Below, one piece after another: positions 2,685 to 8,142 of a DNA stretch of 64,000 nucleotides (the first letter of the stretch is position 1; each line of letters opens with the position of its first letter). A model generated the notes under the pieces. The model ran no database searches, was not told the DNA's origin, and saw only the letters and a list, made by a program, of their open reading frames with translations. Location: assembly GCA_021432605.1 (NCBI GenBank), contig MU271148.1, positions 1,371,362-1,435,361 of the forward strand, given 5' to 3'. Source of the stretch: Coniochaeta sp. PMI_546 (lineage: Eukaryota > Ascomycota > Sordariomycetes > Coniochaetales > Coniochaetaceae). Made by a program: the position numbers and the translations under genes.

Positions 2685-3803
2685 TGGTGTCAATATCCTG
2701 GGGGACGTAAGTATCTCCAACTTTGACTCAATAACCGGCGATCTTGAGACAGCCTATTCACTAACCCCTTGTCCAGCATCAAGTCCCTCGTCATCTTCTT
2801 CGGACCGCTAGTCTTACCCAAAGCAATAGCCTACTACCGCTCCGTCCGTGCTGCGCCTTCTCAGCATGGTCTCGCAGTCCGACCCCTCTCGCCGACCGTC
2901 TTCCGCTCTCTCCTCGCCCTCATCCTCGTCTCTCTAGTCTTCCTCGTCAAGACCCTCCCCATATTCGCTCCAGAGAACATCTTCCGCACAACCCAGTCCC
3001 GCCTACAAATCCCAGTGGACGTCCTGTTCACACGGCTCTCCACCCTTCGGCCCCTAACAGCAGAAGACACAACCCTCCGCTCCCGCTTCGTCAACCTCGA
3101 GAGCCGCCTCTTATACCTCCAGTTCGGTCCCGACGCCCTATCCACCTGCCCCTTCTGCACAGCCGACGAGCCGCGCTCCTACTTCTTCTATGCGCTGCCC
3201 TCCATACTGGCACCTCACCTCTTCAATCTCGTCATCCTAGCGTTCGCCACATCCTCCACCTTCGCCGGCCGCGAAGCAGCCTCCTGGCGTCGCGCCGCCA
3301 CACTCGCAGCCATCACCCTCGCCGCGGTGGACGTCTACCTCGTTTCCACCTACCCGTATCAATCCAACGCGCGGGCACTGCGGCTCGACGAGATCGACTT
3401 CTTCTTCTGGTCCGCGCGCGCGAGACGCTACTTCTGCCTCGCCCTGCTGGACGGAGCGCTAGGATGGGTGCTCTACCTCTCTTCCACCAACCGCGCCTTC
3501 GTGGTACCGCCTACCCCCGCGGAGAGGGTTGAGAGCGCGATCAGGATACTCGGCGCGGCGAAGAGTAAGCTCAATGCCGTCGGCATCGTGAAGAACACCG
3601 CCATCCGGGATGAGGAGCTGCGCACGCGGACGCAGGCGTACTGGGCACACGAGGGCATCGTGATGAGGGATGTCATGGAGGAGAGGGAGGTGATCGAGGG
3701 GGTCACTGATGCCTTGACGAACAGGATTGATATAAGGGGCATCGAGAGAGATGCCGAGATGTATGCGGCTAACGTATTGTTACCCAGGCAGAGTTCATCT
3801 TAG
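2684..3803 (+). CDS. Conserved fungal four-helix membrane protein, function unknown
   Basis: A 23-nt first exon (2684-2706, MVSISWG plus two bases) joins at phase 2 to a long exon (2777-3803), giving 349 residues. The intron is GTAAGT...CAG, 70 nt. A TTG at 2769 lies inside the intron and is not the start. Four hydrophobic segments are visible at roughly residues 50-75, 140-165, 180-200 and 220-240. Between the first two is a Cys-rich patch, CPFCTADEPRSYFFYALP, that looks conserved. The C-terminal third is charged and probably soluble (EEREVIEGVTDAL). I recognise the general type as an uncharacterised ascomycete membrane protein and cannot name a function. Confidence 0.82.
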
Positions 3804-4070: not shown

Positions 4071-5924
4071 CTATGGCCCGCCGCTCGTATCCGGCCTCGC
4101 TGTCGTGGTCGTCGAGAAGCTGGACACGCTGCCCTTCCTCGACCCAGCCGTGCTAGCCTCCTCGACACTCTTTTCTAGGAAGCCGGCCCATAGGTCAGCC
4201 AGCGACTCGTGCTTTCCGCTCGGCGTTGGCTCGGAGAAGAACTCCGTGTTCAGCGCCGGCGAGCTTGGTGTGCGGTGGAAGGGCGAAGTGGGTAGGCGGA
4301 GGGTATTGTTTGCTCCTCCCGGCCGCGCAAGACCGGCTTTCTCGCGCTGCTCCTCGCTCCAGTCGAGCAGGCCGGCGATGACCTGCAGGATCTGGAACTT
4401 GCGCGGATCCGAGCGGTCCAGGGAGAGGAAGTGGATGAAGTGGTTGGTTACGATTTGTCTGGTATTGCGTTAGTAAACCAGCTTTCATCCTAGACTCTTG
4501 TGAGGAAAAAGAAAGCACAAGCATACCTATCAATCATCTCCTCCGGCTTCATCTTTTTGATATACTTGAGCGCCTTGGTCAAATGGTCGTTCAGCACAAT
4601 GGCCTCATGCCTCAGCTTCCCAATCAATAGGTTCTTTTCCTTCACCTCCTTCTCGAACGGCGCCGTCCTCTCCAGCTCCTTCGCAAGGCCCTCCATCTCC
4701 CTCTCCGCCTTGGCCGCCTTCTCCTCGGCCTCTTGCGCCCGCTTCTTCAGCTCGGCGACCTGGCTCTCGGACGTCTCGACCATCTCCCTCAACTCCTTCT
4801 TCCTCGCCTCTTGTATCTCCTGCAGCGCCCTCTGCAGACCGTCAACGGCCTGACTATGCGTATCCCGCTCGGCCACGACACGCTCGTACGCCTCTCTCAG
4901 TGACCCGACCTGCTCCTCCAAGTCGGCGACCTTGTCGCTCAGACTCTCCCGCATGCTCCGCTCCTCCATGGCAATGACCTCCCACTCACCCATGGCAGCA
5001 GCCGTAGCTTCCAGCTCGTGCTTCAGATGCGCCGTCTGCTGCGTGAGATCGTCCTTCTCCTTGAACCAGTTCTGCTGGCTCAGGTTGCTCCTACTCCTGA
5101 GCCCAACGAGTTCGCGCCCTTGCTCCGCCATCTCGCCCTTCAACCTCTCGACCTCGTCCTCCAGCGTCCTCCGGCCGGACTTCAGCTCCTCGTTCGCGGC
5201 CTTGAGCTCCTCGTTGGCGGCTTCCAGCTCCTCGACCCGTTGGTTGGCCTCGTCGAGCTCGGCCTTGTCGCGCTTCAGCCGGTCGCCAAGCGTCTCTTTT
5301 ATCTTCTCTACCCGGCCCAGGAGGTTCTGGTATTGCGTCTCGGCGTGGTCTTTAGCCGCCTCGCTCTCCTCCAGGTCGGTGCGGAGTTGGGACACCTCCT
5401 CCGTGTGCGAGGCGCTGATGGATTCCAGTTGGCGCCGGAGCTGTTCGACTTCTTGCCGGAGGGCTTCGCGCTCGGCCGACATGGCTTCTAGTTTTGCGGA
5501 TGTGGAGGATGATGAGGAGGGGGAGGGTTGTGTTTCGTCTTCATCTGCTGGTCTGGGAGGGTGGTTGTGGCCGTTTGTTATCGTTGTGGTTGCAAGGCCG
5601 TTTGTGTTGGGGGTAGGCTCGGGTTGGCCTGATGGCTCGTCTTGGGACGCGGACTGTTCCACGACTGGTGTTTCTGGCTCGTCTGCAGATAATTCATCTT
5701 GCTCGGGTTGCTCGTCGGGCTGCTTTTGTTCTTCGACGGAATCCTCCTTTTCTATCTCGGCCACCGGCTTGGCTTTATTCGCATTGTTCTTCTTCTTCTT
5801 GTTGTTCTTCTTCTTGCTGGCGCCCGCTAGTGATGATGTTAGTTAGTCTTTAAGAGATTCAAGGTAGCTGTCGCTCTTAGGTGCACGAACCTTGCTGGGC
5901 CGATTGGGCGGCTTCTGGGGACAT
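4071..5924 (-). CDS. RUD3: RUD3-type Golgi golgin with a C-terminal GRAB domain
   Basis: Three exons on the minus strand (5891-5924, 4527-5826, 4458-4071; introns of 64 and 68 nt) give 573 residues. The short first exon encodes MSPEAAQSAQQ; exon 2 opens with a Lys/Asn-rich tract. Residues about 35-110 are acidic and low-complexity, about 110-400 form a long heptad-rich coiled coil, and the C-terminal part carries the GRIP-related Arf-binding (GRAB) region: LIGKLRHEAIVLNDHL, then across the second intron IVTNHFIHFLSLDRSDPRKF and WSEEQREKAGL. Yeast Rud3 is a cis-Golgi tether recruited by Arf1. The first intron has a GTTCGT donor, unusual but in phase. The tail is Ser/Thr-rich and ends SGGP. Confidence 0.88.
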
Positions 5925-6744: not shown

Positions 6745-6924
6745 CTAATCCTCAAACCCGTTCCAATACTCCTCTTCCATGGATGTCTTGGTCTTCTTGG
6801 TCTTCTTGGTCTTCTTCCTCTTCTCCTTCTTGCTCGCACCTCTGAGCTTCTTGAGCTCTTTCACCGGTGCCTTTGACTCCTCTGCCAGCTTAGCAACCTC
6901 TTCCGGTAAGCCTGCCTTGGCCTC
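6745..6924 (-). other. Open 59-codon in-frame extension after the NOP15-type stop
   Basis: Directly after the TAG of the upstream RRM gene the same frame stays open for 59 codons to a second TAG at 6745-6747. The extension is Lys/Glu-rich. It contains VKELKKLRGASKKEKRKKTK, a near copy of the gene's own tail AKETKKAKGASKKKGKKAKA, and ends MEEEYWNGFED. It therefore looks like coding sequence. Either the first stop is read through or removed in some transcripts, or it is a recent nonsense change. Confidence 0.6.
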
Positions 6925-8142
6925 CTAAGCCTTGGCCTTCTTGCCCTTCTTCTTGCTGGCACCCTTGGCCTTCTTGGTCTCTTTCGCCGGTGACTCCTCC
7001 TCCGCCGCCACAGCCTCTTGCGGCTGCTCCTCACTTACAGGCTCAACCGCCTTCTCAGCCTCCTTATCTTCGCTCTCAGCAGCCGGAGCCTCAATAGCCT
7101 TGGTCTCCTCTGCGACCTCGAGAGCCTTAGGCTTAGCCTCCGCAGCCTTCAGAGCAGGGGCCTCAAACTCGTAGCCGAACTCCTTCAGCTTCTCCGCACG
7201 TGCAGATCTCCTCTTCTCCTCCTTGCCGATCTTGGCCTCCCACTTGGACTCACTCAGCGGGCGCTCTAGCTGCTTGGCCGCCATCTTGTTCCAGGGAACC
7301 TTCTTGAACCGCCTGTTCGCGCCCTTCCACAGCTCCTCGTGAATCTGCGAGTCAGGGACGAGCTTGCAGCGCAGGATGTGACCAAAAAGAAGGTAACCGT
7401 CCATAGTCTTGGACACAACCTCGGCTGTAGAAGCGTCGGCGAACTCGATAAATGCAAAGTGCTTGCTCGCGCCCGTCTTCTTGTTGCGCGACAGCCGCAG
7501 GCGGGTGATGGGGCCGAACTGGGAGAAGTACTGCCGCATCTCATGCTCGTAGAAACCGTGGGGTATCCTGCCCACATAGACTGTGCCGGTGCCCGTTTTT
7601 GGGCCGTCCGTGGTAGCTTTGCTGTCTGACTTCTTGGCCTTGGGTATCTTGCCGACATCCTGACCTTGCTTAAATGTGCTCTTGGTTGTGATCTCCGCAT
7701 CGTCGTCATCGCTGTCAAAGCGTGCCATCAGGTCTTTGGTCCTGTCGTCGGCCTCTTCGACTTCTTCCTCGTTTTCCACGGCCTCTGACTCCTCGACAGC
7801 CTCTTCCTTCTTGGCTTTGGGTGCCTTCACTTCTGGCTTGGATTTCTTGGCCGGCTTCTCCGCGGCTGACTTCTTCGCGGCGGCAGGTTTCGCTTTCGTC
7901 TCAGCGGCTTCCTTCACGGGCTTTTGCTTCTTTGCGGCGATGGGAGATGCGACTGATGCATCCTCGGCAGCTGGACAAAGGGATGTTAGTCTTCAATTGC
8001 ACGCAACGCTGGACCGTGACGGGACAAGCTCACCCTTTCTCTTGGGCGCGGCAGCAGCCTTCGCAGCCTTCTTGACAGGGGGCATGTCCTCGGCCTTGGC
8101 TGGAGGAGCCTTCTCTTTTCTTTTACGGAGTTCTGCTGGCAT
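6925..8142 (-). CDS. NOP15: NOP15/NIFK-type nucleolar RRM protein, 60S ribosome assembly
   Basis: Two exons (8034-8142 and 6925-7970; 63-nt intron, phase 1) give 384 residues. The first ~145 residues are Lys/Ala/Glu-rich. A single RRM follows, with RNP2 GTVYVGRIPHG and RNP1 SKHFAFIEF. After it comes the family's signature C-terminal extension, HILRCKLVP and then ANRRFKKVPWNKMA. Yeast Nop15 and human NIFK bind pre-rRNA at ITS2 and are needed for 27S processing and large-subunit maturation in the nucleolus. The Lys/Ala tail ends GKKAKA at a TAG that is followed in frame by a second, similar tail (separate entry), so the true C-terminus is uncertain. Confidence 0.88.

Follow-up and report, generated by a model that had tools for sequence, protein, structure and literature searches.

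A tandem copy of the C-terminal tail in frame behind the stop codon of a Coniochaeta NOP15-type gene: a candidate for stop-loss RNA editing

Background

In the fruiting bodies of Sordariomycetes, A-to-I RNA editing is carried out by Tad2-Tad3-Ame1, which favors a U at -1, particular bases between -2 and +4, and hairpin loops, and often targets UAG stop codons (PMC9600606, PMC11156358, PMC4817773). Stop-loss editing has been described for hundreds of sites or genes (PMC4817773, PMC11156358), including 323 genes in F. graminearum (PMC4817773); in S. macrospora stop-loss peptides are described for 15 transcripts, and white collar 1 acquires a 131-residue extension with peptide support (PMC6794485). 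FgRID of F. graminearum is likewise described as an edited-stop gene, and the same 2024 review states that for no stop-loss event has a function in sexual reproduction been reported (PMC11156358). On the side of the machinery, the replacement of KN by MV in Ame1 is reported to be a Sordariomycete innovation that is critical for editing and lets Ame1 bind Tad3 (PMC11087585).

Here we describe a NOP15-type gene of Coniochaeta sp. PMI_546 in which a TAG stop is followed, in the same frame, by an open extension that resembles the gene's own tail. In those parts of the fungal editing literature available to us we found no description of a tandem copy of a gene's own tail serving as a stop-loss extension. 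No title among the literature matches listed concerns editing of NOP15; the one listed paper that mentions both NOP15 and editing is on a plant nucleolar protein (PMC10267116).

Results and discussion

A NOP15-type gene with an open frame behind its stop

The window, the whole stretch of 64,000 nucleotides that was analyzed, lies in contig C6 of a genome of 33.48 Mb in 24 contigs. The gene, read from the minus strand like all of its features given below, comprises two exons separated by one inferred intron, with 384 codons and a single RRM. Exon 1 (8034..8142) begins with the ATG at 8142-8140 (MPAELRKRKEKAPPAKAED...) and, when joined to exon 2, gives a predicted in-frame ORF of 384 amino acids plus stop. 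The putative intron 1 (7971..8033; 63 nt) reads GTGAGC ... ACTAAC ... CTTTGTCCAG / TTTGTCCAG, and served as a yardstick for the rival introns considered below. Exon 2 (6928..7970) codes for the RRM domain (PF00076 RRM_1, 59.3 bits) and a K/E-rich tail ending in KGASKKKGKKAKA. Its best PDB match is 8i9p_CI (E 1.9e-94), which we take to be from Chaetomium thermophilum; the match spans almost the whole of exon 2 (residues 9-329 of the 330 given). Further matches are 8esq_o, presumably of S. pombe, 11aa_o (Ribosome biogenesis protein 15), presumably of budding yeast, and 8fkp_SH (MKI67 FHA domain-interacting phosphoprotein), presumably human. Membership in the Nop15/NIFK family is indicated by the RRM and by likeness to Nop15 orthologs outside the RRM as well. 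Scans of GTDB genomes and of viral contigs with the residues encoded at 7100-7650 of the window recovered no fungal relative, the sole GTDB match being a Desulfobacteraceae contig at 31% identity.

The first stop, a canonical TAG, occupies 6925..6927 and is followed by a 59-codon in-frame extension (6748..6924) that ends in TSMEEEYWNGFED and is closed by a second TAG (6745..6747). The first-pass annotation had described this arrangement of stop, 59 open codons and second TAG, and its coordinates agree with ours (6927..6925, 6924..6748 and 6747..6745); the motifs it quoted, including the terminal EEEYWNGFED, are all present in the translation, EAKAGLPEEVAKLAEESKAPVKELKKLRGASKKEKRKKTKKTKKTKTSMEEEYWNGFED. 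It had also put the chance of such an open run at about 6%, but considered chance unlikely in view of the repeated composition and motif. As a control we took 95 ORFs at least 200 codons long, none overlapping another, from the window and 200 kb of the same genome, a set in which genuine genes stand beside exons and perhaps antisense ORFs and which includes the NOP15-type ORF itself. In 12 of the 95, the NOP15-type ORF counted in, the frame stays open for 59 codons or more after the stop; thus the length alone is not rare, and some of the longest of these runs probably read across introns.

What stands out is the content of the run. The extension has a coding log-odds of +0.30 per codon, and its two other forward frames score -0.40 and -0.30; among the 25 longest post-stop runs, none of the remaining 24 exceeds +0.09. 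GC3 is 0.73, equal to the value for the CDS, and falls to 0.46 over the 300 bases past the second stop. AAG outnumbers AAA by 15:1, and the strand skews typical of the tail persist across the extension, weakening near the second stop. Pfam returned no family above the cut-off for the extension, and a PDB search with the extension alone gave just two chance matches, both to Z-DNA-binding protein 1 (E 0.51 and 0.87). A match of the read-through tail to methanol dehydrogenase subunit 2 (PDB, E 0.023) was dismissed as chance.

The extension as a tandem duplication of the tail

At the DNA level the tail ahead of the stop (copy 1, coding, 6930..7023) and a segment inside the extension (copy 2, 6804..6906) share 73 of 94 aligned bases, with a repeat period of about 117-126 bases; copy 2 lies in the same frame and differs from copy 1 by gaps of 6 and 3 nt. 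This bears out the earlier view of the extension as a homologous, coding-like second tail. When the codons of the extension were shuffled 1000 times, no shuffle attained the score of 89 that its DNA gives against that of the tail (mean 41, maximum 81), and a search of the genome itself with the extension at E <= 10 returned only the extension. As the repeat of the coding tail is seen at the DNA level and the search finds nothing but itself, the extension most plausibly arose from the coding tail by tandem duplication followed by divergence.

Duplication alone does not prove translation, because the differences between the copies fall at codon positions 1, 2 and 3 in the numbers 9, 7 and 5, and because a copy evolving neutrally in simulation often stays open, in 42-64% of cases when the repeat is considered and in 16-39% when the extension is taken in full, depending on the number of changes assumed. 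The 9/7/5 pattern carries no signature of purifying selection.

A long, coiled-coil-looking ORF elsewhere in the window (4490-5830, minus strand) has a GASKKKNNKKKKNN stretch at its upstream end, as read by eye. Its likeness to the Nop15 tails probably reflects composition.

Which of the two stops is normal

In 8i9p_CI, which has 414 residues, the alignment with the Coniochaeta tail extends to residue 411 and ends as the short form of the protein does. In global alignment of the tails to this ortholog, the short form scores 162, the read-through form 109 and two hypothetical spliced forms 115-119, with a slight bias towards forms ending at the first stop, as the aligned letters of 8i9p_CI themselves end at residue 411 of 414. 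Copy 1 scores 60 against 8i9p_CI, a value equaled in 3 of 500 shuffles, and the extension 46, equaled in 64 of 500; Lys/Glu-rich tails align easily, and this comparison rests on a single ortholog. Since this closest ortholog reached ends there, we read the first TAG as probably the gene's normal and older stop.

The stop codon as a predicted editing site

The bases around the adenosine at 6926 are -2U, -1U, +1G, +2G, +3A and +4G (context CUUAGGAG), so that all six match the preferences of fungal editing, with the qualification that the context was scored post hoc, the stop being already known, and that the GAG after the stop is expected because the surrounding DNA is Glu-rich. A hairpin is predicted at 6914..6936, GGCUU-AGG-AGGCC with outer GCC/GGC pairs, in which the UAG adenosine is the first base of the loop; its predicted probability of lying in a hairpin loop is 0.88 with flanks of 30 nt and 0.96 with flanks of 50 nt. 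A loop probability of at least 0.8 is found for 15.7% of 300 random UAGs of the window, and its combination with all six preferred bases for 7 of the 1139 TAG triplets in the window and for 2 of the 37 TAG-ended ORFs among the 95, the NOP15-type ORF being one of the two. The loop position and the preferred neighboring bases are the grounds on which we propose that the UAG may be edited to UIG in some transcripts.

Two other stops drew attention in the same survey. At the end of the plus-strand ORF 2769-3803 in the window, the TAG at 3801-3803 has five of the six preferred bases and a loop probability of 1.0. In contig C1, at about 561073, the TAG of a 635-codon ORF has all six, with a predicted loop probability of 0.97, and may be regarded as a candidate for stop-loss editing.

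Editing machinery and hallmark genes in the genome

The genome holds three DUF726 genes. In an alignment made by eye, the gene at C11:79431-80548 reads NPWSVGMVRADKAG, with MV at the diagnostic site of Ame1, the paralog at C7:1744175-1745215 reads NPFSLAKNRSEKAG, with KN at that site, and the third, in C2, reads NPWAVSLDRATMAG. We count the MV pair at 30 residues ahead of the Ser; the published numbering puts it at 31. These residues suggest that the C11 gene is Ame1-like and of the editing (MV) type. Together with the closeness of the Nop15 protein to 8i9p_CI, an Ame1-type gene points to the genome being that of a Sordariomycete.

A search for kinases returned 141 matches, eight of which have one TAG as their sole inside stop; seven of these were set aside by eye, the stops being presumed to reflect intron or frame effects. 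An NDR/CBK1-like kinase at C2:1760874-1761062 (region C2:1760100-1761600), has an in-frame TAG-TGG in its DWWS motif, reading MAPEVVAGKPYDARCD, stop, WSIGV. At the position of the TAG the best PDB match, CBK1, which we take to be of budding yeast as well, carries W. The TAG has five of the six preferred bases and a loop probability of 0.98. The match of DWWS motif and TAG points to this kinase as the ortholog of PUK1, and hence as a probable target of premature stop correction; NCU03242, the N. crassa ortholog of PUK1, is described as having UAGUGG at the same motif (PMC4817773).

Two other hallmark genes gave no such sign. None of the four DNA-methylase matches contains an inside stop. A GATA gene at C12:569718-570195, which we take to be white collar 1 on account of the letters of its GATA finger and the length of its ORF, ends in a TAG followed by an open run of 16 codons, compared with the 131 residues added in S. 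macrospora.

Weighing the alternatives

The duplication, the frame and codon use of the second copy, the base context of the stop, the predicted hairpin and the machinery-type genes are features of this genome, and in our tentative reading, which we hold to be quite possible though short of probable, they reflect a normal UAG stop placed in a near-ideal predicted editing site, where stop-loss editing (UAG to Trp) would add the second tail in sexual tissue. It counts against editing here that single sites are described as often varying between species (PMC5381528). We infer the editing and the translation of the extension, together with their timing, and because translation is a matter of inference the strongest rival is a relic of duplication: the event would have taken in the stop, copy 2 would be 3' UTR without meaningful translation, and its frame and codon use would be inherited from the coding copy. 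This is possible, if somewhat doubtful. The repeat at the DNA level with its period of 117-126, the end of 8i9p_CI at the first stop, the 9/7/5 differences and the simulated chance of 0.16-0.64 of staying open all agree with it. Against it, both gaps are multiples of three, the open frame goes on for about 18 codons beyond the repeat, and GC3, skew and coding score are maintained towards the second stop and drop thereafter.

The first-pass annotation, right about the in-frame stop and the homologous tail, had offered readthrough, a nonsense change, an assembly error and a cryptic intron as explanations, and its list lacked A-to-I editing of the UAG, which fits best. A cryptic or alternative intron, by which splicing from 7038 or 7034 to 6925 or 6882 would drop copy 1 along with the stop and make the two tails alternatives, can indeed be drawn as far as donor and acceptor go. 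One candidate of 114 nt (6925..7038; GTAAGT...GCTTAG) takes the stop as its acceptor, in phase with the donor, and another of 153 nt (6882..7034; GTGAGG...GGCAG), with a branch-like CTTAC, keeps the frame as well; intron gain by tandem duplication has been published (PMC4974935). The shorter candidate comes first in a mechanical list ranked by flanking coding score, and it is among the 14 of 30 candidates on that list that have no CTNAY. Nevertheless, it lacks a CTNAY in the stretch 8-45 nt ahead of the TAG, with only 2 T in the 50 nt that precede this triplet, and in the longer one CTTAC is the sole CTNAY 8-45 nt before the end; the candidates have 7% and 8% T, respectively, against 27% in the inferred intron 1. 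Phase-0 GTRNGT donors occur within the last 60 codons of 10 of the 95 ORFs, the spliced forms match 8i9p_CI less well than the short form does (115-119 against 162), and the 59 codons leading up to the stop are themselves of coding type (+0.35). Of the two intron models derived from the genome, the first (92 candidates, 16 after selection) was too noisy, and the looser one (54 branch-selected and 30 strong-donor candidates, 13 with CTRAY and 16 with CTNAY) is an untrained, rough yardstick. On balance we consider splicing unlikely. No better placed is the idea that the triplet at 6925-6927 stems from a recent nonsense change, or from an error in the assembly, in a gene that truly ends at the second TAG: the extension is coding-like, and the stop sits in an AAG/GAG-rich stretch one base away from a sense codon, but the ortholog 8i9p_CI ends at the first stop and its tail best matches the short form, and if the older of the two stops is the first TAG a recent change is disfavored. 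Programmed ribosomal readthrough of an unedited UAG would also account for an extension that is open and coding-like. Known contexts that stimulate readthrough include UGA-CUA and UAG-CARYYA; both are absent here, with GAG GCC following the stop, and this option appears very unlikely.

Conclusions

Under the stop-loss editing model, an old tandem duplication would have put a second Lys/Glu-rich tail in frame behind the stop, with the UAG adenosine in a predicted hairpin loop and flanked throughout by bases that Tad2-Tad3-Ame1 prefers. Some of the transcripts in sexual tissue would carry UIG in place of UAG and be read as Trp, giving a form of Nop15 longer by 60 residues (the Trp, the second basic tail and the acidic-aromatic EEEYWNGFED); vegetative cells would make mostly the short form. 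A more speculative extension of this model, which we think rather improbable, is that the hairpin-placed UAG acts as a developmental switch, in which editing in fruiting bodies, during sexual development, equips a ribosome assembly factor with a second basic tail and thereby alters its nucleolar or pre-60S behavior. If editing does occur, the extension of this ribosome assembly factor would be a recognizable copy of a known tail and the case unusually testable, since what sets the long form apart from the short one is a defined, homologous module. The analysis also suggests that editing candidates can be flagged from a raw genome by stop context, hairpin, coding-like extension and machinery genes.

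With the Nop15/NIFK RRM family of 60S assembly factors the gene shares an RRM whose flanks also align with 8i9p_CI, 8esq_o, 11aa_o and 8fkp_SH, but it differs in having a second in-frame tail past the stop, the match to 8i9p_CI ending at residue 411 of 414. Premature stop correction of the PUK1 type offers a parallel in the reading of UAG as Trp, and a TAG of this sort is present in the PUK1-like kinase of this genome; however, the NOP15-type stop stands at the conserved end of the protein, whereas that of PUK1 lies inside a domain. The closest resemblance is to the stop-loss editing of F. graminearum, N. crassa and S. macrospora, with which this locus shares a canonical UAG, a U at -1, a purine-rich 3' side, a predicted hairpin loop, an in-frame C-terminal extension and an Ame1-type gene in the genome; it is set apart by an extension that duplicates the protein's own tail in tandem and by editing that in Coniochaeta is a prediction.
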